Source of the DNA: an uncultured Bacillota bacterium
Lineage (GTDB): Bacteria; Bacillota; Clostridia; Oscillospirales; Oscillospiraceae
NCBI GenBank assembly: GCA_947073765.1
Contig: CAMTMZ010000015.1
Location: forward strand, 1-53,899
Length of the DNA: 53,899 nucleotides
Direction of reading: 5' to 3'
In this document: positions 6,683 to 44,492 of the stretch, piece after piece
Layout of the letters: each line of letters opens with the position of its first letter
How positions within the stretch are numbered: position 1 is the first letter of the stretch
Notes under the pieces: model-generated
What the model was told of the DNA's origin: nothing
Database searches by the model: none
What the model saw: only the letters and a program-made list of their open reading frames with translations
Made by a program: the position numbers and the translations under genes

Positions 6683-9193
6683 TTATACAGGCTTGAAGAT
6701 CAGGCTGACCAGCTTGCCCTTGACTACGATAGACTTCACCAACTGCATCCCCTCGGCCAGCTTGACGATCTTAGGCTCTGCCAAGGCGGCGGACACAACC
6801 TCCTCATCGGAGGCATTGGCGTCCACCACGATGTTGGCCTTCACCTTGCCGCCCACCTGAACAGCCATTTTGGCGGTAGCGGCCACGGTCTTGCTCTCGT
6901 CGTACTCCGGCCAGCTCTGGAGGCAAACCTGCCCGCTAAAGCCATTCATCTCCCACAGCTCCTCGCACAGATGAGGGGCGAAGGGAGACAGCATCAGCAG
7001 CAGCTGCTTGTAGTCCCCTCTGGCAGCCCCTTTGGCGTAAAAGTCGTTGACCAGGGACATGAGGGCGGCGATGGCGGTGTTGAACTTCATGGCCTCGATG
7101 TCGTCAGACACCTTTTTGATGGCCCGATGGACGGCCAGTTCGTTCTCCGGGGAGACCTCCTCCCCCTCTTTCAGCTTCTCGCTCAGGTTCCACACCCGGT
7201 CCAGGAATTTTTTGCAGCCCCGGACGGACTCATCGGACCAGGTGGCAGTCTTCTCAAAGTCGCCGATGAACATGATATACAGCCGCATGGTGTCCGCACC
7301 GTAATCCCGGATCACATCGTCGGGATTGACCACATTGCCCAGAGATTTGGACATCTTCACAGAAGGCCGCAGAGCCTGACTGCCGTATTTGTCAATGAGG
7401 GCCTGCTTCTCCTCCTCCGTCTCCGCGTTGCCCACATAGTGGGGGTTCCTGCCCAGGATCATGCCGTGGCTGGTACGCTTGGCGTAGGGCTCAGCATGGG
7501 GAATCACACCGATGTCGTGGAGGAAGTTATTCCAGAACCGGGAGTAAAGCAAATGGAGGGTGGTGTGCTCCATGCCGCCATTATACCAGTCCACCTGGCC
7601 CCAGTAGTCCAGGGCCTCCTTGGAGGCCAGGGCTTCGCTGTTGTCCGGATCCATATACCGCAGGAAATACCAGCTGGAGCCCGCCCACTGGGGCATGGTG
7701 TCGGTCTCACGCTTAGCGGGGCCGCCGCAGCAGGGGCAGGTGGTATTTACCCAGTCGGTCATCTTGGCGATGGGGGACTCGCCGTTGTCGGTAGGCTCGT
7801 AGGACTCCACCTCGGGCAGCAGCAGGGGAAGCTGGTCCTCAGGCAGGGGGACCCAGCCGCATTTGTCACACCACACCATGGGGATGGGCTCACCCCAGTA
7901 CCGCTGGCGGGAGAATACCCAGTCCCGGAGCTTGTAGTTGATCTGTTCGTGGCCGATGCCCTTCTCTTCCAGCCACTTGGTGACGGCAGGGATAGCGTCC
8001 TTTACGGTCATGCCATTGAGAAAGTCGGAGTTGACCATGGTGACGGTGTCGTCCTTGGCCGTGAAGGCCTCCTTCTGTACGTCCTCGCCGCCGGAGACCA
8101 CCTCGATGATCTCGCAGCCGAACTTTTTGGCAAAGGCCCAGTCGCGGGTATCATGGGCGGGGACAGCCATGATGGCCCCCGTGCCGTAGGAGGCAAGGAC
8201 ATAGTCAGAGATGAAGATGGGGATCTCCCGGCCGTTGACGGGGTTGACAGCCCGCACCCCCTTCAGCTTCACGCCGGTTTTCTCCTTATCAGCGGCCAGC
8301 TCAGTGCGTTCAAAGTCGGACTTACGGCCCGCCTCCTCCACGTAGGCAGCTACCTCATCCCAGTTTTGCAGCTTGTCTTTCCATTCCTTCACAAAGCGGT
8401 GCTCTGGGGAGATGACCATATAGGTGGCGCCGAAGAGGGTGTCAGGCCGGGTGGTGAACACCACAATATCCTCCCCCGTGGTAGCCTTGAAGGTGACCTC
8501 CGCGCCGGTCGACCGGCCAATCCAGTTGCGCTGCTGGGTCTTTACCCGCTCGATAAAGTCCACAGTGTCCAGCCCGTCGATCAGCTTCTGGGCGTAGGCG
8601 GTGATCTTCAGCATCCACTGGGACTTCTCCTTGCGGACCACCGGCGCACCGCACCGCTCGCAGACTCCCTCCACCACCTCCTCGTTGGCCAGCACACACT
8701 TACAGGAGGTGCACCAGTTCACGGGCATGGTGGTCTTGTAGGCCAGGCCGTGCTTGTACAGCTGGAGGAAAATCCACTGGGTCCACTTGTAGTAGCTGGG
8801 GTCGGTGGTGTCTACACACCGGTCCCAGTCGAAGGAATAACCCAGCATGTGAAGCTGCCGGGTAAAATTTTCGATGTTCTTTCTGGTAACGACAGCGGGG
8901 TGGACATGGTTCTTGATGGCAAAATTTTCCGTGGGCAGGCCGAACGCATCGTAGCCGATCGGCAGCAGGACATTGTAGCCATCCATCCGCTTCTTCCGGG
9001 CAATGACATCCATGGCGGTGTAGGGCCGAGGGTGACCCACATGCAGGCCCGCTCCGGAGGGGTATGGAAACTCCACCAGACCGTAAAACTTGGGTTTGGA
9101 ATCGCCAGTCTTGCAGGCGAAGGTCTTCTCGTCCTTCCACCTGGTCTGCCACTTCTTCTCAATGGCGGTAAAATCATATTTCAATGCAAACAC
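6683..9193 (-). CDS. leuS: Leucyl-tRNA synthetase
   Basis: The 836-residue class I synthetase charges tRNA-Leu. The Rossmann fold carries the HIGH-type motif as HVGH at residues 51-54 and the KMSKS motif near residue 614 ([14 protein letters not shown]). The CP1 editing domain is present ([20 protein letters not shown]), followed by the anticodon-binding domain and the C-terminal extension. Zinc-ribbon cysteines ([12 protein letters not shown]) are visible. Length is normal for bacterial LeuRS. It has its own promoter with a leader of only about 45 nt, so there is no room for a T-box riboswitch. Confidence 0.97.
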
Positions 9194-9243
9194 TCTCCTG
9201 TATCGTTTGGACCACAGGTCCGAATCAACAGTAATTCTATGTC

Positions 9244-9272
9244 ATTATAGCGGAACGGGGCCATAATTGCAA
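9244..9272 (-). promoter_or_regulatory. leuS promoter
   Basis: Minus strand TTGCAA (9267-9272), 17 bp, TATAAT (9244-9249). Confidence 0.8.
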
Positions 9273-9594
9273 GAGGTGAATCAAAAACTCCGTTTTTTAC
9301 GGAAACAGGTTCTATCAAATAGGCTCCGTGATAGAGTCAGGGCAGTCGACAAAATTTTCAGAAGAGTGATGCACAACACGGCACAAGAAAAAATAGAGGG
9401 TTTTTTGACGGAGCTTCGTTCTATAAGCTGGTTTACAAACAGCGGTAAACCAGTGGAAAAAATGTTGGATATGCCCGGTTTTCCACTGCGCTGACCGGGA
9501 TTTACAGGCAAGAATATTTTCCTTGCTCCCGGATTGGGAAGTATCCCTCCAGTCAGTCAGTTGTTGTGTAACTGCTTTCCGCCTTGATCTCACC

Positions 9595-9622
9595 AAAAAC
9601 AGCCGGCCCGATGGGCCGGCTG
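9595..9622 (-). terminator. Terminator of the SprA-like gene
   Basis: A perfect 10-bp GC-rich stem cagccggccc / gggccggctg (9600-9622) followed by five T on the minus strand. Confidence 0.85.
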
Positions 9623-9635
9623 TCCATTGTTTTGA

Positions 9636-10460
9636 TTAGGCCACCACCTCAAAGCCGGACTTTTGCTCGTCCTCCGCCGGCTTGGCCTCCTCTACGGGAT
9701 TGGCCTTGGTGGTGGTGCGGGTGGTGCCACCGGAGACGTACACATCGCCGCACTCGGGGCAGATCGCAGTGTGGATGGTCACCGACTGGCTGACCACCTT
9801 CCGGTCCTCTCGCTGGGCTTTTGCCTGTTCCCGGACTACATGCTCCTGTTCATGGCCCCGAACAGCGGAGGCCGCCAGTTCAGGCGCCACATTTGTGGCA
9901 GTTTTAAAGGAAACGCCTGGGTCGTCGGAGCCATCCTGATACTTACGGTTCTTGCAGGTCTGGCACTCGGCGTCCTCCATCACCTCCTGGGGTGATTTGG
10001 CATCCTCCACACCGGCAGGCTCCAAAGCGTCCTTTTCGCTTTGATCCCCAGCGCTCCTGCCCCTATCCTTTGCCTCCCCACCATTCAGCAGTCTCTCCAG
10101 CCCCTTCGACTGATTCCAGCCCAGCAGTTCCTTCTCCATACCTTCCGCCTCACCGTCCAGATAGCGGATACGGGCGCGCACCGCCATCTCGGCTGGGTCA
10201 GCCCCTTCCCGAAGGGTTGGGAAAGGAAATTTGCTCTCCTGCTGTTCCGGAATAAGCTGAGCGGCACCCCGGCTTACCGCAGGCGTTTTATCCACAGGCG
10301 GCACAGGAGTGGTCTGAGCCCGGGCCACTGGACTGACCGGCTCAGTGCCAGATCCTCTGTTTTGATAGGAGGCCCTGTTTTGATAAATGGAATAGTAGCC
10401 GCCGATGCTGCCATAGCTCCCAATTGCTCCAATGCCAGCCACTGCGGACACCCCTTTCAT
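9636..10460 (-). CDS. SprA-related putative metalloprotease-like protein
   Basis: The 274-residue protein has a low-complexity Gly/Ser/Tyr and Pro-rich N-terminal half. Its conserved C-terminal domain contains ECQTCKNRKYQDGSDDPGVS (C166, C169), an HEQEH motif at 203-207 and CPECGDVYVSGG (C234, C237). This arrangement matches the SprA-related family, often annotated as putative metalloproteases from the HExxH-like motif; note that here it reads HEQEH. Enzyme activity is unproven. Start choice: the ATG at 10460 would leave only about 10 nt of leader and no ribosome binding site, while the in-frame GTG at 10442 has aaagggg eight bases upstream and may be the true start. Confidence 0.65.
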   Translation of the reverse strand: MKGVSAVAGIGAIGSYGSIGGYYSIYQNRASYQNRGSGTEPVSPVARAQTTPVPPVDKTPAVSRGAAQLIPEQQESKFPFPTLREGADPAEMAVRARIRYLDGEAEGMEKELLGWNQSKGLERLLNGGEAKDRGRSAGDQSEKDALEPAGVEDAKSPQEVMEDAECQTCKNRKYQDGSDDPGVSFKTATNVAPELAASAVRGHEQEHVVREQAKAQREDRKVVSQSVTIHTAICPECGDVYVSGGTTRTTTKANPVEEAKPAEDEQKSGFEVVA

Positions 10461-10477
10461 GAAAACTTGTCAGTGTA

Positions 10478-10506
10478 ATTATACTAAATCATCCGTCTCT
10501 ACGCAA
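10478..10506 (-). promoter_or_regulatory. Promoter of the SprA-like gene
   Basis: Minus strand TTGCGT (10501-10506), 17 bp, TATAAT (10478-10483). Confidence 0.7.
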
Positions 10507-10532
10507 GAGCTTTTTCAAATTTTCCCACTCCG

Positions 10533-11222
10533 CTATGCCTCTACCACCGTAAGCACACCCTCCACCCCGCCCAGGGTTTGGAGGATCTCCTCCTTTCCCG
10601 CCCCCTGGCGGGAGAGCAGCGCCAACACGGCGCAGGAGCCATCGCCGCCGTCGCCCTTCCGGGTAATCTCTACATCCACAACCTTGATGCCCAGCATGTG
10701 GCATTGGGACACCATCTCCTCCAGGCAGGAGGGATGTGCGTACTCGGCGTAGACTGTAACCTCCCGGTTGTCCCGGAGCAGGCGGTATTCCAGCTTAGAG
10801 AAGAACACTTCCGCCACCAGCACCAAGGCAGTACCGTACACCGCGCCTTCATAGAACCCCGCCCCGCAGCACAGCCCCACGATGGCCGCCACCCACAGCC
10901 CGGCGGCGGTGGTCAGCCCCCGCACCCGCCTCCATTTGGTCATGATAATGGCTCCGGCGCCAATAAAGCTGATCCCCGCGATCACCTGGGCGCCCAGGCG
11001 GGCCACATCGCTGTACAGCCCCAAAACCACATAAACATACTGGCTGGTGGCGGTGGTCATGGCGGCCCCCAGGCAGATGAGAATGTGGGTGCGAAACCCG
11101 GCGGGCCGGCGCTTCTCCGAGCGCTCAATCCCGATCATGCCGCCGCATACCAGGGCCAGCATCACCCGCACCGTAACGCTGAGCATATCCATTCCCCGAA
11201 GGAAATCCAGACTGTGCAGCAA
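10533..11222 (-). CDS. MgtC/SapB family membrane protein, copy 2
   Basis: The N-terminal half has four to five membrane segments with the MgtC signature (GGMIGIERSEKRRPAGFRTH, then ISFIGAGAIIM and RGLTTAAGLW). It is followed by a cytoplasmic ACT-like domain (EVTVYAEYAHPS ... VVDVEITRKG). MgtC proteins are linked to survival at low magnesium and to control of ATPase activity; their exact role in Firmicutes is unclear. The start is taken as the TTG at 11222, because the first residues (LDFLRGMDMLSV) align with the start of its tandem neighbour (LDYLRQFNMASV); an ATG at 11192 is the alternative. It lies 11 bp after copy 1, in the same unit. Confidence 0.85.
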   Translation of the reverse strand: MLHSLDFLRGMDMLSVTVRVMLALVCGGMIGIERSEKRRPAGFRTHILICLGAAMTTATSQYVYVVLGLYSDVARLGAQVIAGISFIGAGAIIMTKWRRVRGLTTAAGLWVAAIVGLCCGAGFYEGAVYGTALVLVAEVFFSKLEYRLLRDNREVTVYAEYAHPSCLEEMVSQCHMLGIKVVDVEITRKGDGGDGSCAVLALLSRQGAGKEEILQTLGGVEGVLTVVEA

Positions 11223-35696: not shown

Positions 35697-35757
35697 GACT
35701 AAACTATAATGTGGAAGAAACACCTTCGCTCCGCTTCAGCTTTGTTAGTATTTCCCC

Positions 35758-35786
35758 TTGCGCGGCGGTTGCTCCTGTGCTATACT
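35758..35786 (+). promoter_or_regulatory. Promoter of the ParB-like/phosphoesterase pair
   Basis: Plus strand TTGCGC (35758-35763), 17 bp, TATACT (35781-35786), about 38 nt upstream of the first start codon. Confidence 0.65.
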
Positions 35787-35824
35787 GCAAAACTGAAAAT
35801 CCTTCAATTGCAGGAGGTGTTCCG

Positions 35825-36652
35825 ATGTATTTGGAAGAATACCGCAAGGCCCGGCAGATGGGTCAGAAGGAGGCCAAGCGCTCTCAAAGCCGGGGCTGTT
35901 CCCCCTATCTGCCCGTGCTGGACGAGATATTGGCCGCCGAGACCACCTGCGGCGAGACGGGCCTGGGCCTGGTGGAGATCCCCATTGAACTCATCGTGGG
36001 CACCCGCTCCGCCGGACGCAGCAAGGCCTTTTCCCACTCCTTCCTCCCCCTGATGGACGAGGACTCTGAATTCTGCCACAAGTGGACCGCTCTGTGCAAG
36101 GCGCATATGGATTCCGGCATTACCGACCCAATCAAAGTATATGAGTATATGCACACTTTTTACGTGGTCGAGGGACATAAGCGCGTCAGCGTCCTGCGCT
36201 GGTTCGGCGCTGTGAGCATTCCCGCCGAAGTCACCCGCATCCTCCCTGCCCGGGACGGCTCTAAGGCCAGTAACATCTACTACGAGTTTGTAGACTTTTA
36301 TCAGCTGTCTAAAATCAACTACCTGTGGTTCAGCGGAACCGGACGGTTTGCCCGCCTCCAGGAGGCAGTCGGCAAAGCTCCCGGTGAAGTCTGGGCAGAG
36401 GACGAGCGGAGAAAGTTCTTCAGCTTTTACACCCGCTTTGCCGCTCTCTACGGCGACAGAGAGGCAAAAGAACTATCCACCCACCTCACTGTGGCTGATG
36501 CCATGCTGCTCTATCTGGAATTTTTCGGCTACGATCAGGTGAAAAATTTTACCCAATCCGATTTGAAGGACGGTTTCCTCCAGCTCCACAAGGCCTTTTC
36601 CGTAAAAAAATCTCAAAACCTCAACCCACTGAAAGGACTGCTGAATCGATGA
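35825..36652 (+). CDS. ParB-like domain protein (stand-alone N-domain of BMP-type proteins)
   Basis: A 275-residue soluble protein with no signal peptide. It has the pattern YEYMHTFYVVEGHKRVSVLR, resembling the ExNKR/EGHKR motif of ParB/sulfiredoxin-like folds, preceded by VEIPIELIVGTRSAGRSKAF. From memory, the same block (MYLEEYRKARQMGQKE onward) occurs as the N-terminal part of longer Clostridia proteins that end in a BMP-type substrate-binding domain; that second domain is missing here. The role is unknown. The ATG at 35825 follows aggaggtgttccg. It overlaps the phosphoesterase gene by 4 bp (ATGA), so the two products probably work together. Confidence 0.5.
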   Translation: MYLEEYRKARQMGQKEAKRSQSRGCSPYLPVLDEILAAETTCGETGLGLVEIPIELIVGTRSAGRSKAFSHSFLPLMDEDSEFCHKWTALCKAHMDSGITDPIKVYEYMHTFYVVEGHKRVSVLRWFGAVSIPAEVTRILPARDGSKASNIYYEFVDFYQLSKINYLWFSGTGRFARLQEAVGKAPGEVWAEDERRKFFSFYTRFAALYGDREAKELSTHLTVADAMLLYLEFFGYDQVKNFTQSDLKDGFLQLHKAFSVKKSQNLNPLKGLLNR

Positions 36653-37286: not shown

Positions 37287-38936
37287 TTACACCTTGAGCT
37301 TAAAGCGCTTGGTCTGCTCCTCCATCAGCTGCACCTGCGTAAAGAGCTCAGCACTCACAGCGGCGGATTCCTCGCTGCTGGCGGAGTTGCTCTGCACTAC
37401 AGAGGAAATCTGCCCAATGCCCTCTGTCACCTGAGCAATGGACTCCGCATCGTTCTTCACCGCATCCACAATAGCTCCAATGGCCTCGTTAGACTGCACA
37501 ACCAAATCCAAAGTCTTGTTCAAGGTAGCGGATACTTCGCTGACAATATGACTGCCCCGACCGGTGGCCTGAACAGAGTTTTCAATGAGTCCCTTGGTGG
37601 CCTTGGCTGCCTCATCAGATTTAGAGGCCAGATTGCGCACCTCGTCGGCCACTACGGCAAAGCCCTTACCGGCAGCTCCCGCCCGAGCGGCCTCAACCGC
37701 GGCGTTCAAGGCCAGAATATTGGTCTGGAACGCGATATCCTCAATGGTGGCGATAATCTTCTCAATCTGTTGAGAGGCCTCGGTGATGTCCTTCATAGCG
37801 GCCACCATCTGCTCCATCTGCTGACCGCTGATCGTCACCTGCTCGCCGGTTTTTCTTGCGTTATCCTGCGCAGCGGCGGCAGTCTTCACATTCTCCGCCG
37901 CGCTGCGGGACAGAGTATCCAGCGTGGCATACAGCTCCTGAACGGCGCTGGCCTGTTCCGTGGCTCCCTGGGCCAGGGACTGGGCGCCGCTGGACAGGTG
38001 CTCCGCATTGCCGGACACCTTCTGCTGCGCCTGACAGATGCTGTCAATGGTGGCGGACAGACGGGAGGTAAGTACTTCCATCGACTCCTCAATGGAGCGG
38101 AAATCACCAATAAAGGGGGTGGCAGCCCTCACATTGAAGTTGCCTTTGGCCAGCTGCTCCATAATTCTGTTCAGATCCCAGATATAGCCCCGGATCAGCT
38201 CCATGGCCTTCTCCAATGTACCGGCCATATCGCCCAATTCATCGTTGGTCTTCATATCCAGCGCCAGGTCCAAGCGTCCCTCATGGAGAGGCTGAACCTG
38301 CCGGGTGATATGCAGTATAGGCCGAAGGACATTTTTCAGCACATACAGTACCAGGCTGATCAAACATGACAAGGCCAGCACCAAACAAAAGGCGGTAATT
38401 GCCTGCATCATCATAATGGTAGAGTGCATTTGCTTGCTGCTCTCATCATTAAGGTTATTCCCCCGCTCAATCACCTTGTCCAGCTTTCCTACCAGTGTAG
38501 ACAGATTAGATTGAATGGTCTCCTGATAATACTTTTGGGCCTGAGAGGGACTGGTACTCTTCAACCCCAGCACATAGTCGGCAGACTCATGGAGCGTCTT
38601 GTGCAAAGGCTCCATCTCGCTGCGCAGAGCCAGAAACTCCTCATCTTTGGTTCCCGCGTCACCGTAAAGCCACTGGCCCAGTATACAGGTAGTTGGATCC
38701 TTGCTGCCTGTAAATTCGGTATTGGCATAAAGCGCGTTGCTCAGATTTGTTGCCCACTTGTAGTGGGCAACCTCTGCGCTCTGGGCCCGACTCAGCACAG
38801 CCACAGTCTCCACGTTTCTCTCTTGCATACCCTTTATCCGCAGCAGGTTGAAGGTAGTCACGCCGCTGAACAGTAAAATTGACAGCAACGCCGCAGCAAC
38901 TCGGATAAACACCATTTTCTTGATACTTTTGCGCAT
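37287..38936 (-). CDS. Methyl-accepting chemotaxis protein with extracytoplasmic CZB zinc domain
   Basis: A 549-residue chemoreceptor: membrane segment at about 8-30, sensor region to about 175, second membrane segment, HAMP domain ([14 protein letters not shown]), then the signalling domain with the conserved tip [20 protein letters not shown]. The sensor region has the CZB zinc-binding pattern: H58 (AHYKW), C84 ([10 protein letters not shown]), H112 and H116 (LHKTLHESA). CZB domains sense oxidants such as hypochlorous acid, or zinc itself. The ATG at 38936 is chosen because gcgaggctgatttt precedes it and the membrane segment follows at once. No flagellar or che genes are in the window. Confidence 0.9.
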
Positions 38937-38991
38937 AAAATCAGCCTCGCTTCTTTTATAAGTACCGCATACTGCGGACACCAGTGAGGCT

Positions 38992-39040: not shown

Positions 39041-39080
39041 AAAAACCGGAGAGCCATTACTTACGGCTCTCCGGTTTTTT
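39041..39080 (-). terminator. Terminator of the redox operon
   Basis: A 15-bp stem aaaaaccggagagcc / ggctctccggttttt directly after the flavodiiron gene, with a T-run on the minus strand. Confidence 0.9.
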
Positions 39081-39084
39081 AAGT

Positions 39085-40311
39085 TTACTTATTTTCGCCC
39101 TTAATAGAAGCGGCAATGGCATCAGCCAGAGCGTCAATCTCCGACTCGTTGTCGGCCTTCAGCGAAGAGGTGACAGTCATCTCCTCATCCAGAATATTAA
39201 TATGCTTGAGCTGTTCCAGCTCCTCCCGCATCAGCGCACCGGACCTGGGAGCCCAGGAACCGCTGCCCATCAGGGCCACAGTGCGGTTTTGCAGGTTGAG
39301 CGCCTTCATATCAATGAGGAAGTTGTGCATGGGCGGGAAGATACCCAAGTTGTAGGTAACAGAGGCCAGCACCAGGTGGCTGTACTTGAACAGATCAGAG
39401 ATCAGATAGCTGACATGGGTAGATGACACGTCATACAGCCGGGTGTTGGTGACCCCACGGGCAGTGAGCTTGGCAGCCAGCACCTCAGCGGCAGCCTCAG
39501 TGTTGCCATACATGGAGGCGTAGACGATCATAACGCCCTTCTCTTCCGGCTCATAGGTAGCCCAGTGGGTGTACTTGTCAATGATGTAGCCCAGATCCTT
39601 GCGCCAGATAGGACCGTGGAGGGGACAAAGCATCTTGATGTTCTCCAAGCCCACCACAGAGGCGGCCTTATTCAGCAGAGCAACCACCTGGGGACCGTAC
39701 TTGCCCACGATATTGGTGTAGTAACGCCGGGCGTCATCAATCCACTCGCCGTCAAAGTTTACCTCATCGGCAAAGAGCTTGCCGTCCAGAGAGCGGAAGG
39801 AGCCGAAGGCGTCGGCGGAGAACAGAACGCCGTTGGTGGTGTCAAAGGACACCATAGCCTCGGGCCAGTGGACCATGGGGGCGTAAACAAAGGCAATGGT
39901 GTGCTTGCCGAAGCAACGGCTGTCGCCCTCGTTCACCTCGTCCACCTGCTCGGGGTCCAGGGCGAAGCCGAACTGGTTGAGCAGAGTCACCGCCTTGGGG
40001 GTGGTGATAATCTTCACATTAGGCCAGCGCAGCAGAATCTCCTCAATCGAGGCGGCGTGATCGGGCTCCACGTGGTTGATGACCATGTAGTCCAAGGGAC
40101 GGCCATTGAGCACGGCCTTTACATTGGTAATGAACTGCCGGCCCACAGCCCAGTCGGCGGTGTCAAAGAGAACTGTCTTCTCATCCAGCAGCACGTAGGC
40201 GTTGTAGGACACACCGTGGTACAGGGGGTGAATGTTCTCAAACAGGGCCAGCCGATGCTCGTCCGCACCTACCCAATACAGGTCGTCAGTGACCATACGG
40301 TAATTATACAT
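39085..40311 (-). CDS. Flavodiiron protein (FprA-type O2/NO reductase)
   Basis: A 408-residue class A flavodiiron protein. The N-terminal metallo-beta-lactamase-like domain binds two irons through NHVEPDH (H80, E82, D84, H85), H148, D167 and H232 (PLHGP). The C-terminal flavodoxin domain, from about residue 258, has the FMN phosphate loop YASMYGNT. Such enzymes take electrons from rubredoxin and reduce O2 to water or NO to N2O without forming radicals. The gene lies 36 bp after the rubredoxin-containing fusion and before a strong terminator, so its electron donor is probably that neighbour. ATG after aaaggaggcaactctat. Confidence 0.93.
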   Translation of the reverse strand: MYNYRMVTDDLYWVGADEHRLALFENIHPLYHGVSYNAYVLLDEKTVLFDTADWAVGRQFITNVKAVLNGRPLDYMVINHVEPDHAASIEEILLRWPNVKIITTPKAVTLLNQFGFALDPEQVDEVNEGDSRCFGKHTIAFVYAPMVHWPEAMVSFDTTNGVLFSADAFGSFRSLDGKLFADEVNFDGEWIDDARRYYTNIVGKYGPQVVALLNKAASVVGLENIKMLCPLHGPIWRKDLGYIIDKYTHWATYEPEEKGVMIVYASMYGNTEAAAEVLAAKLTARGVTNTRLYDVSSTHVSYLISDLFKYSHLVLASVTYNLGIFPPMHNFLIDMKALNLQNRTVALMGSGSWAPRSGALMREELEQLKHINILDEEMTVTSSLKADNESEIDALADAIAASIKGENK

Positions 40312-40347
40312 ATAGAGTTGCCTCCTTTATATTTTGATATTGGTGTC

Positions 40348-42261
40348 TTAGACTTCAATCTCGATGAAGCCGTCCACTTCCTCGCCGCAGTGGGGGCAGG
40401 ACCATCCCTCAGGCAGCTCCTTGAAGGCTGTGCCGGGCTTCACATCGTTCTCGGGGTCGCCGAGCAGCAGGTCGTACTCGTAGCCGCAGCCATTGCAGAT
40501 ATACAGCTTCCGGGGCGGAGTCACCTTCTTGGGGGCCATCCGCTTCATCTTGGTCATGGGCGGCGCGGGCAGCTTCTCGCCAGTATCCAGCGCGTCGGTG
40601 AGCAGGGGCAGAATCTCCATCACATCGCCCACAATTCCGTAGTCACAGTTCTTAAAGATTCTGGCGTTGGGATTCTTGTTGATGGCCACGATGCAGGACG
40701 CGTCCTTAATGCCCTTCAGGTGCTGGATGGCACCGGAAATGCCGCAGGCGATGTACAGGTTGCCCTTGAACTTCTGTCCGGACATACCCACATAGCGGTT
40801 GAGCGGTACATATTTCAGCGTCTCGGCCACAGGGCGGCTGGAGCCCACGGCGGCGCCGGCGGCCTTGGCCAGCTCCTCAATGAGCTTCATGTTCTCCTTG
40901 GCCCCGATGCCCTGTCCGGCGGAAACCACCCGCTCCGCCTGGGTGATGGGGGTATCCATGGGGATACCCACGGTAAAGTCGTGGCCATCCTTCTTGAGGT
41001 TGGCGACCAGAGTCTCTACCTTCTCCTGGGCAGTGCCGTCCTTCAGAATCAGGCGCTTCCGGGCGCCGGTCTCAGGACCCCGGGGGCCAGCCGCGGCGGC
41101 GGAGGGGGCCTCCTTGGCAGCCTTGCCCAAAATGTGAGAGGCAATAACCACCCGCTGAATCTCGTTGGTGCCCTCGTAGATGGTGGTGATCTTGGCGTCA
41201 CGGTAGAACCGCTCTACCTCCATGCCCTTCAGGTAGCCGCTGCCGCCGAAAATCTGCAGAGCGTCGTTGGTGACCTCCAGGGCGATATCAGAGGCGTACT
41301 GCTTGGCCATGGCGGACTCCATGCCGTAGGGGGCGTGAGCCTGCTTCAGCTCGGCGGCGGAGTAGATCAGGAACCGGGCACAGCGCAGCTTGGTGGCCAT
41401 GTCGGCAATCTTGAAGGCAATATTCTGCTGCTGACAAATAGGCTTGCCGAACTGGATGCGCTCCTTGGAGTACTCCACGGCAGCCTCATAGGCCCCTTGG
41501 GCAATACCCAGGGCCTGAGCGGCGATACCGATGCGTCCGCCGTCCAAGGTAGCCATGGCGATCTTGAAGCCTTGGCCCTCTTTTCCAAGCAGGTTCTCTT
41601 TCGGAATCTTCACGTTGTTGAAGTTCAGCTGGCAGGTGGCGGAGGAGCGGATACCCATCTTGTCGTAGTGCTCCTCAAAGGTAAAGCCCTCCCAACCTTT
41701 TTCCACAATAAAGGCGGAAATGCCGCGGGTTCCGATGCCGGGGGTGGTAACAGCAAACACCACATAGGTGCTGGCTTCGCCGCCGTTGGTGATAAAAATC
41801 TTCTCACCATTGAGCAGCCAGTGGTCTCCCATATCCTCAGCGGTCGTCTCGGTGCCGCCGGCGTCAGAGCCGGCGTTGGGCTCGGTGAGGCCAAAAGCCC
41901 CCAGTTTCTTGCCGGAGCACAGGTCAGGCAGATACTTCTTCTTCTGCTCCTCGGTGCCAAAGGCGTAAATGGGGAAGGTGCCCAGAGAGGTGTGCGCAGA
42001 CAGAATCACTCCCACGCCGCCGTCCACTCGGGCCAGCTCCTCCACAGCGATGGCGTAACTCAAGGCATCGGATCCGGCGCCGCCATACTTTTTCTCATAG
42101 GGCAGGCCCATCACGCCCAGCTCTCCCATCTTCGCCACTACCTCGTGGGGGAACTGATTGTTCTGATCCAGCATGAAGGCGATGGGCTTCACCTCGGTCT
42201 CGGCAAATTCTCTTACCTTGGCCCGCAGTTCCTCATGCTCAGGTTTGGTTTGATACAGCAT
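40348..42261 (-). CDS. Acyl-CoA dehydrogenase / ETF-alpha FAD domain / rubredoxin fusion
   Basis: A 637-residue three-part protein. Residues 1-380 are an acyl-CoA dehydrogenase of the short-chain (butyryl-CoA) type, with catalytic Glu363 in IYEGTNEIQR and the flavin block GAFGLTEPNAGSDAG. After an Ala/Pro linker, residues 440-560 match the C-terminal FAD domain of ETF-alpha (VVSAGQGIG, GSSRP, NLYIACGISGAIQHLKG, DYGIVGD). Residues 585-637 are a rubredoxin with C589, C592, C622 and C625. ETF-beta and the ETF-alpha N-domain are absent. The chain could pass electrons from acyl-CoA through FAD, FAD and iron to the flavodiiron enzyme encoded next. ATG after gaggaggaagtatctgt. Confidence 0.93.
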   Translation of the reverse strand: MLYQTKPEHEELRAKVREFAETEVKPIAFMLDQNNQFPHEVVAKMGELGVMGLPYEKKYGGAGSDALSYAIAVEELARVDGGVGVILSAHTSLGTFPIYAFGTEEQKKKYLPDLCSGKKLGAFGLTEPNAGSDAGGTETTAEDMGDHWLLNGEKIFITNGGEASTYVVFAVTTPGIGTRGISAFIVEKGWEGFTFEEHYDKMGIRSSATCQLNFNNVKIPKENLLGKEGQGFKIAMATLDGGRIGIAAQALGIAQGAYEAAVEYSKERIQFGKPICQQQNIAFKIADMATKLRCARFLIYSAAELKQAHAPYGMESAMAKQYASDIALEVTNDALQIFGGSGYLKGMEVERFYRDAKITTIYEGTNEIQRVVIASHILGKAAKEAPSAAAAGPRGPETGARKRLILKDGTAQEKVETLVANLKKDGHDFTVGIPMDTPITQAERVVSAGQGIGAKENMKLIEELAKAAGAAVGSSRPVAETLKYVPLNRYVGMSGQKFKGNLYIACGISGAIQHLKGIKDASCIVAINKNPNARIFKNCDYGIVGDVMEILPLLTDALDTGEKLPAPPMTKMKRMAPKKVTPPRKLYICNGCGYEYDLLLGDPENDVKPGTAFKELPEGWSCPHCGEEVDGFIEIEV

Positions 42262-42289
42262 ACAGATACTTCCTCCTCTATGTTTAATC

Positions 42290-42691
42290 TTAGAACATTG
42301 CGCTCAGCGGTGTTTTACGCAGCTCCACGTTCAGGACCTGCTGGACTCTGGACAGCTCCCGGCACAGGCCGCAGCGGCCCTCTTGATGGTTTTCGCACTG
42401 GTAGCCGGGCTGCTGGCAGCGGTTGACATAAACCGGCTCTCCCAGCGCCTGAAACAGATCCCCCAGATACAGTGCCTCACAGGACTCTTCCAGAACATAA
42501 CCCCCGCTGGCCCCTCTGCGGCTGGATACCAGTCCGGCCGCATGGAGCTGCTTGAGTATTTTCAGCGTGATGGCCTTTGGCATGCTCTCTTTCTGGGCAA
42601 TGGCAGCGGCAGACAACTGCCCCTCCTGATACAGCGCCCGCAGGATTCGCAGAGCATAATCCATTTCCCGGGTCATCAGCAATGGGATCAC
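42290..42691 (-). CDS. Rrf2-family regulator with four-cysteine cluster
   Basis: A 133-residue winged-helix regulator (MDYALRILRALYQEGQLSAAA ... LKILKQLHAAGLVSSRRGASGGY). The C-terminal part has cysteines at 92, 99, 107 and 110 (RCQQPGYQC, GRCGLC). IscR and NsrR hold an Fe-S cluster with three cysteines spaced about five apart; four with this spacing is a variant that could hold a cluster or zinc. The start is uncertain: GTG 42691, TTG 42682 or ATG 42676, all after aggagg. It lies 28 bp upstream of the fusion gene with no promoter between, so it likely controls that operon and itself in response to O2, NO or redox state. Confidence 0.85.
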   Translation of the reverse strand: MIPLLMTREMDYALRILRALYQEGQLSAAAIAQKESMPKAITLKILKQLHAAGLVSSRRGASGGYVLEESCEALYLGDLFQALGEPVYVNRCQQPGYQCENHQEGRCGLCRELSRVQQVLNVELRKTPLSAMF

Positions 42692-42719
42692 TCCTCCTGA
42701 ATGAGTACCTTTTTAGTCT

Positions 42720-42747
42720 ATTATAACACACCCGTGCAACATGTCAA
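42720..42747 (-). promoter_or_regulatory. Promoter of the rrf2-fusion-flavodiiron operon
   Basis: Minus strand TTGACA (42742-42747), 16 bp, TATAAT (42720-42725). No other promoter was found before the fusion gene or the flavodiiron gene. Confidence 0.8.
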
Positions 42748-42869: not shown

Positions 42870-43559
42870 TCAGTAAAGCCCGTGATATAAGGCGTACATC
42901 GCCCGGAACAGCCGGCGCTCCGTCTCCTCGTCCAGTTCAACAAAGCGGCAGCCATACTCAAAATAACCCGCCCTGCGGGTATCAATGCGCAGCACCTGAC
43001 ACAGCAGAGGGGTATCCCGCAGCTCCAGCAGCTGGTTAATCCGCAGCAGAAATTTATCCCCCACGTCACGCCGGGACTGGGCTCCAACGCATACGCCGCC
43101 CATACCCATGTTATTCACCTGGCAGCGCTCCTCGGGCACACCGGCCCGGTCGGGCAGCACATATGATCCCTCCAGCTCGGTGTTAACACGGATGTTGGCC
43201 CGCTGCTCCTCCTTCCCTTTTAGGGCCAGGTGCTCCGCCTGCCACAGCCCGCTGGGCCCCATTCTTATGGTGCCCTCCAGCAATACCGTTCGGTTCTCCC
43301 GGCTGCTGTAGCCCCGCAGGGTCACCGGAAGCGGCTCCTCCGAGCGGGACATCAGGCTTCCATCCACTCCCGGCTCCAACTGGGCTCGGTCACCTCGCAG
43401 CTCCAGCAGTTTGGCTACCAGAAACACCCTGCCGTCCCCGCTGGTTACCTCAACCCGCATCCCGGAATATACCTCCAGGTCCTCTTTCATGGCCCTTCTA
43501 TGGGCCTCCTCCACCCGTTTTTCTCTTGCACTCTTCCGAAAAGAGTCAAACAATCCCAT
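42870..43559 (-). CDS. PilZ-domain c-di-GMP effector
   Basis: A 229-residue soluble protein: basic, helical N-terminus, a YcgR-N-like beta domain (residues about 28-110), then a PilZ domain. c-di-GMP binding residues are R120 and R124 (EEQRANIRV, the RxxxR motif) and NNMGMGG at 149-155, which stands in for the usual (D/N)xSxxG with Gly in place of Ser. It probably acts as a brake or adaptor for motility, or controls surface polymers, when c-di-GMP rises. It starts 3 bp after the stop of a diguanylate cyclase gene, so enzyme and receptor are made from one message. Confidence 0.82.
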   Translation of the reverse strand: MGLFDSFRKSAREKRVEEAHRRAMKEDLEVYSGMRVEVTSGDGRVFLVAKLLELRGDRAQLEPGVDGSLMSRSEEPLPVTLRGYSSRENRTVLLEGTIRMGPSGLWQAEHLALKGKEEQRANIRVNTELEGSYVLPDRAGVPEERCQVNNMGMGGVCVGAQSRRDVGDKFLLRINQLLELRDTPLLCQVLRIDTRRAGYFEYGCRFVELDEETERRLFRAMYALYHGLY

Positions 43560-43562
43560 TTA

Positions 43563-44492
43563 TTAAGTCCCTCCAATTTCCTCCTTACCCCGGGAGTTAG
43601 ACCACACCACTCTGTTACGGCCAAATCGCTTGGCGTCATAAAGCATGGTGTCAGCAAGCTTCAGATAAGTATCGTAGGAGTCCTCCACCCTGGGCACCAC
43701 AGTCACCCCGCCGATGCTCACCGTAACCCACTGGGATGTCCCCGCAGTATGCGGAATATTCAGATCCTCCACCGCCTTTCGTATCTTCTGCATCTGCTCT
43801 GCGGCGGTCGCGGCGTCACAGCCCATCAGGATAGCCACAAACTCCTCTCCCCCATAGCGGGCAAAAAAGTCGGTACTCCGCCGCAGAAAGGAGGTAGCCG
43901 TCTGGGCAACAGCGCAAATTACCTTATCCCCAGCGGGGTGGCCAAAGGTGTCATTATACGATTTAAAATGGTCGATATCGAACATACACAGAGAAATAGG
44001 CTGGCGGAAGCGAATCGCCTCCTGCCATTTATTGTGACAGCTGATATTATAGCTGCGCCGGTTGGGCACACCAGTCATCGGGTCCACCATAGACTGCCGC
44101 TCCACTTGGGAGCGATAGCGGTAAAGCTTCACATGGGTGTTCACCCTTGTCCGGACAATTGGCGGGTAGTAGGGCTTTGTTATGTAGTCCACCGCGCCCC
44201 GCACCAGTCCCCGCTCCTCATTCTCCGCGTCCCGCAGGCTGGTAATCAGAATCACTGGAACATGTCTGGTGACAATCTCTTCCTGTAGCTCCCGCAACAG
44301 CGCAAAGCCATCCATACCGGGCATAATCACATCCAGCAGCACCAGGGAAAAATTACCCACCTTGGCGTGGTACAGCCCCGCCTCCGCTGTGTGCGCAACC
44401 GTCACATCATATTCCTTCGCCAAGATAGACCGCAGCATATCGGCCTGAACCGAGCTGTCATCAATAATCAGAACTTTATCACGACTCTCCAT
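43563..44492 (-). CDS. REC-GGDEF response-regulator diguanylate cyclase
   Basis: A 309-residue PleD/WspR-like protein. Residues 1-120 are a receiver domain with acidic pocket DD at 11-12, phosphorylation site D54 (LLDVIMPGMDG), and K106 (ITKP). Residues 133-300 are a GGDEF domain with active site GGEEF at 214-218. The inhibitory site RSTD (205-208) lies exactly five residues before it, so product inhibition is expected. It makes c-di-GMP from GTP when phosphorylated. No partner kinase is next to it. ATG after aaggagtaaaaaa; PilZ gene directly downstream. Confidence 0.93.
   Translation of the reverse strand: MESRDKVLIIDDSSVQADMLRSILAKEYDVTVAHTAEAGLYHAKVGNFSLVLLDVIMPGMDGFALLRELQEEIVTRHVPVILITSLRDAENEERGLVRGAVDYITKPYYPPIVRTRVNTHVKLYRYRSQVERQSMVDPMTGVPNRRSYNISCHNKWQEAIRFRQPISLCMFDIDHFKSYNDTFGHPAGDKVICAVAQTATSFLRRSTDFFARYGGEEFVAILMGCDAATAAEQMQKIRKAVEDLNIPHTAGTSQWVTVSIGGVTVVPRVEDSYDTYLKLADTMLYDAKRFGRNRVVWSNSRGKEEIGGT

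Follow-up and report, generated by a model that had tools for sequence, protein, structure and literature searches.

A probable butyryl-CoA oxygen oxidoreductase orthologue with a candidate Rrf2 operator in an uncultured Oscillospiraceae bacterium

Can an anaerobe pass electrons from an acyl-CoA to oxygen by means of a single small operon? The question is raised by a 53,899-nt stretch of DNA (hereafter the window; contig CAMTMZ010000015.1 of assembly GCA_947073765.1) from an uncultured Bacillota bacterium of the Oscillospiraceae, the minus strand of which carries, from 42747 to 39041, one compact operon that consists of an Rrf2-type regulator gene, a gene for a fused acyl-CoA dehydrogenase, a gene for a flavodiiron protein (FDP) and a terminator, as read from the list of open reading frames and the sequence itself (Table 1). 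On the basis of sequence comparisons, we are confident that the fusion and the FDP represent the orthologue of butyryl-CoA oxygen oxidoreductase (BOOR), and we propose that the two-enzyme operon very probably burns butyryl-CoA, turning oxygen into water. The system is already known and its link to Rrf2 has been published too, so the locus is one more, ordinary example; the only additions made here are a predicted operator and a rubredoxin-less variant, and both are small.

The fusion contains Pfam matches to Acyl-CoA_dh_N/M/1 (residues 7-377), ETF_alpha (439-519, E = 2e-28) and Rubredoxin (587-630, E = 3.5e-16). The acyl-CoA dehydrogenase part is complete, while EtfA contributes its C-terminal FAD-binding domain only; PF01012, the ETF N-terminal domain, had no Pfam match here, so that the fusion does not rebuild a full ETF. 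The motif IYEGTNE runs from residue 361, which places Glu363 within it, and the rubredoxin cysteines C589, C592, C622 and C625 are assigned as ligands by their position. The original prediction, which was based on the sequence of the window, described one gene fusing an acyl-CoA dehydrogenase with Glu363, an ETF-alpha-type FAD domain and a rubredoxin, followed 36 bp later by a flavodiiron gene and preceded by an Rrf2 regulator, with one promoter and one terminator, and each of these features agrees with the Pfam domains, the frame coordinates and the analysis of the operon ends given below. A local frameshift or a chimera does not account for the fusion, because its dehydrogenase, ETF_alpha and rubredoxin Pfam domains recur in each of the 120 homologues listed out of 7996; such an artefact, or chance, was also rejected because the parts of the operon are intact.

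A protein of this design is known from Fusobacterium nucleatum. According to the available text of a review (PMC12288474), which names Bystrom and Wolthers 2024 (Biochemistry 63:2352) as the primary source, a fusion of Bcd, the EtfA C-terminus and rubredoxin, published under the name butyryl-CoA reductase (BCR), forms an alpha4beta4 complex with the neighboring FDP (FN1423), and this complex oxidizes butyryl-CoA, reduces O2 to H2O and lacks nitric oxide (NO) reductase activity; BOOR is also said there to be encoded by many anaerobic Firmicutes. BOOR corresponds to FN1423-FN1424 in the accessible portion of a JBC paper (PMC12630350). Full-length orthology was scored against the protein of Fusobacterium vincentii rather than against F. 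nucleatum FN1424, and 475 of 633 residues are identical (75%) over the full length with the same Pfam layout, while the FDP encoded immediately downstream of the F. vincentii fusion shares 247 of 401 residues with that of the window (about 61-62%). The features of BOOR that can be read from sequence, namely the one-chain BCR architecture, full-length orthology to the Fusobacterium BCR and an adjacent two-domain FDP, are thus all present, and the alpha4beta4 complex and the butyryl-CoA-dependent reduction of O2 are those reported for F. nucleatum. The window operon differs in being led by an Rrf2 gene, whereas BLAST found no Rrf2 in the 13.9-kb F. vincentii locus. The F. vincentii record itself (NZ_CP084075.1) is a 2.1-Mb entry that is labelled as a plasmid and has one annotated feature, and it looks like a chromosome.

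The same review links Bcd-Etf and Rnf to BOOR as partners, in the part of its text that we cite (PMC12288474). The genome that contains the window has an RnfC, D, G, E, A, B cluster by NCBIfam, with RnfG just under the cut-off, and an hbd-bcd run in which the 3-hydroxybutyryl-CoA dehydrogenase (hbd) match falls under its NCBIfam cut-off and a presumed etfB lies at the contig end after the Bcd-like gene; an EtfA-type gene is located on another contig. Co-occurrence with Bcd-Etf and Rnf genes, which is a usual rather than a strictly defining feature of BOOR, is therefore found here. The fusion is related to the bifurcating Bcd-EtfAB complex through its homologous dehydrogenase and EtfA FAD domain, but it is without EtfB and the EtfA N-terminal domain and has an added rubredoxin.

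Pfam recognizes ODP and Flavodoxin_1 domains in the FDP, and the diiron-type motifs HxExDH (from residue 80), PMVHWPE (145), SADAFG (165) and CPLHGP (229) are in place. It shares its core and these motifs with other flavodiiron proteins and flavorubredoxins, such as Moorella FprA and E. coli NorV, but its rubredoxin donor is fused to the dehydrogenase and is neither fused to the FDP nor free-standing. FDPs can reduce NO, and the best NCBIfam match and the best PDB sequence match (1ycf) of the window FDP are both named nitric oxide reductases, so that the pair might instead be mainly an NO reductase that draws electrons from acyl-CoA to convert NO into N2O and is controlled by an NsrR-like NO sensor, a role that would suit the three cysteines and aspartate described for NsrR and present in the Rrf2 protein. 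The NCBIfam match is far below the cut-off (221 vs 635 bits), however, and because the orthologous F. nucleatum complex is reported to have no NO reductase activity (PMC12288474, available text) we regard this explanation as very improbable. Hence, where the original prediction proposed acyl-CoA-driven removal of O2 or NO, the O2 part is supported by what is reported for the F. nucleatum pair and the NO part is not. A second FDP is encoded in the same genome on contig C1 (3869-5269 of the extracted locus); it has a C-terminal rubredoxin-like domain, and its FDP part is 53% identical to the BOOR FDP.

The association between the fusion and the FDP is widely conserved. The 80 named loci compared here are the top 80 among 487 confirmed relatives. 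In 74 of them the fusion is followed by the FDP gene on its own strand, and in the other six the contig ends 0-428 bp after the fusion. The architecture occurring without a flavodiiron neighbor had been put forward as the observation that would count against the original prediction, and among these close relatives it was seen only where the contig had ended. Some loci are less regular: the FDP alignment begins more than 250 bp past the fusion frame in 15 of the 74, it covers only part of the protein in L034 and L069 (260 and 313 residues), and ten of the 80 loci have no full-length fusion in one frame. In L037 the distance is inflated because the fusion frame stops at residue 410 and continues in another frame, and in L063 the FDP lies 32 bp downstream of the fusion. 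When 299 genomes were drawn evenly from the phylum, four of them, including the genome of the window, matched the whole EtfA-rubredoxin part, and in the other three the FDP is within about 25 bp and two have an Rrf2 frame directly upstream. This synteny bears on a reversed chain, in which an outside donor would reduce the rubredoxin and, through it, an enoyl-CoA, with the FDP a mere neighbor. The published name of the fusion, butyryl-CoA reductase, would be in keeping with such a direction (PMC12288474, available text), but the FDP accompanies the fusion in 74 of the 80 loci, the operon contains no further gene that might encode a rubredoxin reductase, and the direction reported for F. nucleatum in the same text is to O2; a reversed chain is accordingly extremely unlikely.

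Three of the loci deserve separate mention. A DUF1963 gene stands between BCR and FDP in L041 (7721-8557), as some Oscillospiraceae have such insertions, and the insertion in L043 resembles it by eye and includes a second frame. In Vescimonas fastidiosa the Rrf2-BCR-FDP genes (7545-11144 of the extracted locus) are carried by a 142-kb replicon that was deposited as plasmid pMM35_02 (NZ_AP023417.1), and genes for a second FDP-like protein, for thioredoxins and for ferritin lie near them.

One related protein that is without rubredoxin has no FDP beside it. This 561-aa acyl-CoA dehydrogenase-EtfA fusion (L105, 301-1986 on contig C5 of genome G092), a variant of Peptococcus-like genomes, was found in one of the 299 genomes and shares 89% identity with a protein of Peptococcus simiae. 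No FDP was found within 1.5 kb downstream, the next long frame resembling RecQ by eye, and two FDP-like proteins and two rubredoxins are encoded elsewhere in the genome. The chain may be the same here, but with components that act in trans.

How is the operon controlled? In the available portion of a 2026 preprint (PMC13404960), relatives of the Rrf2 regulator C0FN14 are described as being encoded next to BOOR pairs in Clostridia of the gut, Oscillospiraceae among them; of 149 neighborhoods, 123 have the BCR architecture and 115 the FDP architecture, and three cysteines and an aspartate are given as features of an Fe-S regulator, as described for NsrR. The Rrf2 protein of the window resembles the C0FN14 type, as that text describes it, in having three cysteines and an N-terminal aspartate and in being encoded before BCR-FDP. 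It thus has the three cluster cysteines and the N-terminal Asp ligand of an NsrR-like Fe-S Rrf2 protein. C92, C99 and C107 are conserved in all 39 aligned sequences, and the position of D11 is Asp in 35, Glu in two and a gap in two (L102 and L103, where the gene is cut by the locus end). A fourth cysteine, C110, is common to 23 of the 39. The protein shares 46 of 126 residues (37%) with the Vescimonas copy.

A promoter similar to that of the window is present in relatives, and comparison of these promoters revealed that the -10 box is immediately followed by a dyad with the consensus GTACTAAAAWRGTAC, which in L072 is perfect (AATGTACTA-AAA-TAGTACATT) and which in the window overlaps the presumed transcription start. 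A scan for GTACTAAAAWRGTAC over both strands of the 80 loci (1.88 Mb) gave 20 sites with at most two mismatches, compared with a mean of 4.5 (standard deviation 3.0, maximum 13) for 60 letter-permuted motifs. Eighteen of the 20 are directly after a -10 box and before Rrf2 or the fusion, and the other two are upstream of the fusion in another setting (L081 at -29 and L099 on the opposite strand at -195). Fusion starts in the scan of the upstream regions were placed by alignment. Such a site is present in 17 of 23 loci with an Rrf2 at least 55% identical to that of the window. The promoter and the site are kept before the fusion in L045 (one mismatch) and L037 (three mismatches), in neither of which BLAST found an Rrf2 in the 14.7 kb of the locus. 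Rrf2 may thus bind the dyad at the promoter, and we favor, as a rather likely model, that BOOR in this Oscillospiraceae-type lineage is run by a self-contained O2/NO switch: the first gene of the operon would encode an Fe-S Rrf2 repressor that binds GTACTAAAAWRGTAC after the -10 box and is relieved by oxygen, and in some species the regulator gene would have moved away while the operator stays. A wider regulon is unsupported, as ACTAAAAAGGTACT with at most one mismatch occurs at two places in the own genome, the operon promoter and one site with one mismatch, vs one place for the backwards control. No published operator for a BOOR-linked Rrf2 was found in the accessible text of the literature searched, which covered sources other than the primary BOOR paper and supplements, and the main text of PMC13404960 contains none of the terms operator, palindrom, promoter, binding site and binding motif. 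In Clostridium brassicae (L099), a palindrome that resembles the proposed operator, GTATACTTTTTTAGTATAC, lies about 180-200 bp before the fusion, with the reverse-strand site at 293, and no Rrf2 gene was found near it.

We infer the reaction of this copy, its exact acyl-CoA, its internal electron order and its regulation as follows. Oxidation of butyryl-CoA, or of another short acyl-CoA like it, by the dehydrogenase domain would yield the enoyl-CoA, and the electrons would pass from the FAD of the dehydrogenase to that of the attached EtfA domain and then, in this presumed order, to the rubredoxin iron, from which they would reach the FMN and the diiron site of the FDP and reduce O2 to water. 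The enoyl-CoA could return to the ordinary butyrate pathway, given the Bcd-Etf and Rnf genes in the genome. The Fe-S Rrf2 repressor, as the first product of the operon, most likely keeps the promoter off until O2 or NO damages its cluster.

Several points weigh against this scheme. BLAST placed an Rrf2 next door in only 35 of the 80 loci (34 of the 68 that have 600 bp or more of upstream sequence), although this test could miss divergent copies, and Rrf2 regulation is hence lineage-specific. Six of the 23 loci with a close Rrf2 have no such dyad, with another sequence in L025, L029, L030, L031 and L055 and none in L046; the sites of the GTACTAAAAWRGTAC motif were counted in the very sequences, related to one another, that had served to define it, and the choice of the best 80 of 487 biases the loci to close relatives. 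With regard to the enzyme, butyryl-CoA as the substrate of this copy is a reading from homology, and the best NCBIfam match of the fusion is acryloyl-CoA reductase, below the cut-off (479 vs 640 bits). The last of these would fit a fusion acting mainly on another acyl-CoA, for example a propionyl-, branched or aryl acyl-CoA, and hence an acyl-CoA:O2 oxidoreductase of different specificity, but the same model is also the best one for the separate Bcd-like protein of the own genome and so does not discriminate. The 75% full-length identity to the Fusobacterium orthologue and the butyrate-type gene set of the genome both argue against a different specificity, which we consider unlikely. Also in favor of the BOOR reading, the best solved-structure match to the fusion is an acyl-CoA dehydrogenase, 5ol2_C, which we take to be Bcd of Clostridioides difficile.

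As argued in the available text of the review (PMC12288474), BOOR allows butyrate-making anaerobes to dispose of O2 at the expense of a weak reductant rather than NADH, and it may reduce the output of butyrate if air enters. The window locus leaves this picture unchanged and adds to it one example and a concrete candidate operator for the Rrf2 control proposed in the accessible part of PMC13404960.

The operon has a perfect sigma-70-type promoter and a strong terminator. A promoter scan of the window gave five promoter-like sites vs 1.7 expected. At the other end, the terminator is visible in the sequence as a 10-bp stem (39046-39055/39065-39074) with a 9-nt loop, and its hairpin folds at -28.6 kcal/mol (z = -8.2; none of 200 shuffles was equally stable); it was missed by the hairpin scan of the window, the loop limit of which was 8.

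Table 1. Features of the BOOR-type operon in the window.
Feature	Position	Strand	Evidence
Sigma-70-type promoter, TTGACA-16-TATAAT, TG before -10	42720..42747	-	12/12 consensus matches
Predicted Rrf2 operator, AGACTAAAAAGGTAC	42705..42719	-	2 mismatches to relatives' consensus GTACTAAAAWRGTAC
Rrf2-family regulator, 133 aa, GTG start as listed	42290..42691	-	PF02082, E = 2.6e-24
BCR fusion (acyl-CoA dehydrogenase, EtfA C-terminal FAD domain, rubredoxin), 637 aa	40348..42261	-	Pfam; F. vincentii orthologue
Two-domain FDP, 408 aa	39085..40311	-	PF19583 and PF00258
Intrinsic terminator, T-runs on both strands	39041..39074	-	Fold energy and shuffles

Other genes in the window include a 313-aa frame (35711-36652, plus strand) that overlaps a metallophosphoesterase gene by 4 bp and has no Pfam match at E 0.001. 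Upstream of the operon (42870-44492, minus strand), a PilZ-domain gene follows a response regulator-GGDEF gene by 3 bp, possibly as a c-di-GMP pair, and downstream of the operon terminator (37287-38981, minus strand) is a gene for a chemoreceptor that contains a CZB zinc-binding domain and a HAMP domain.

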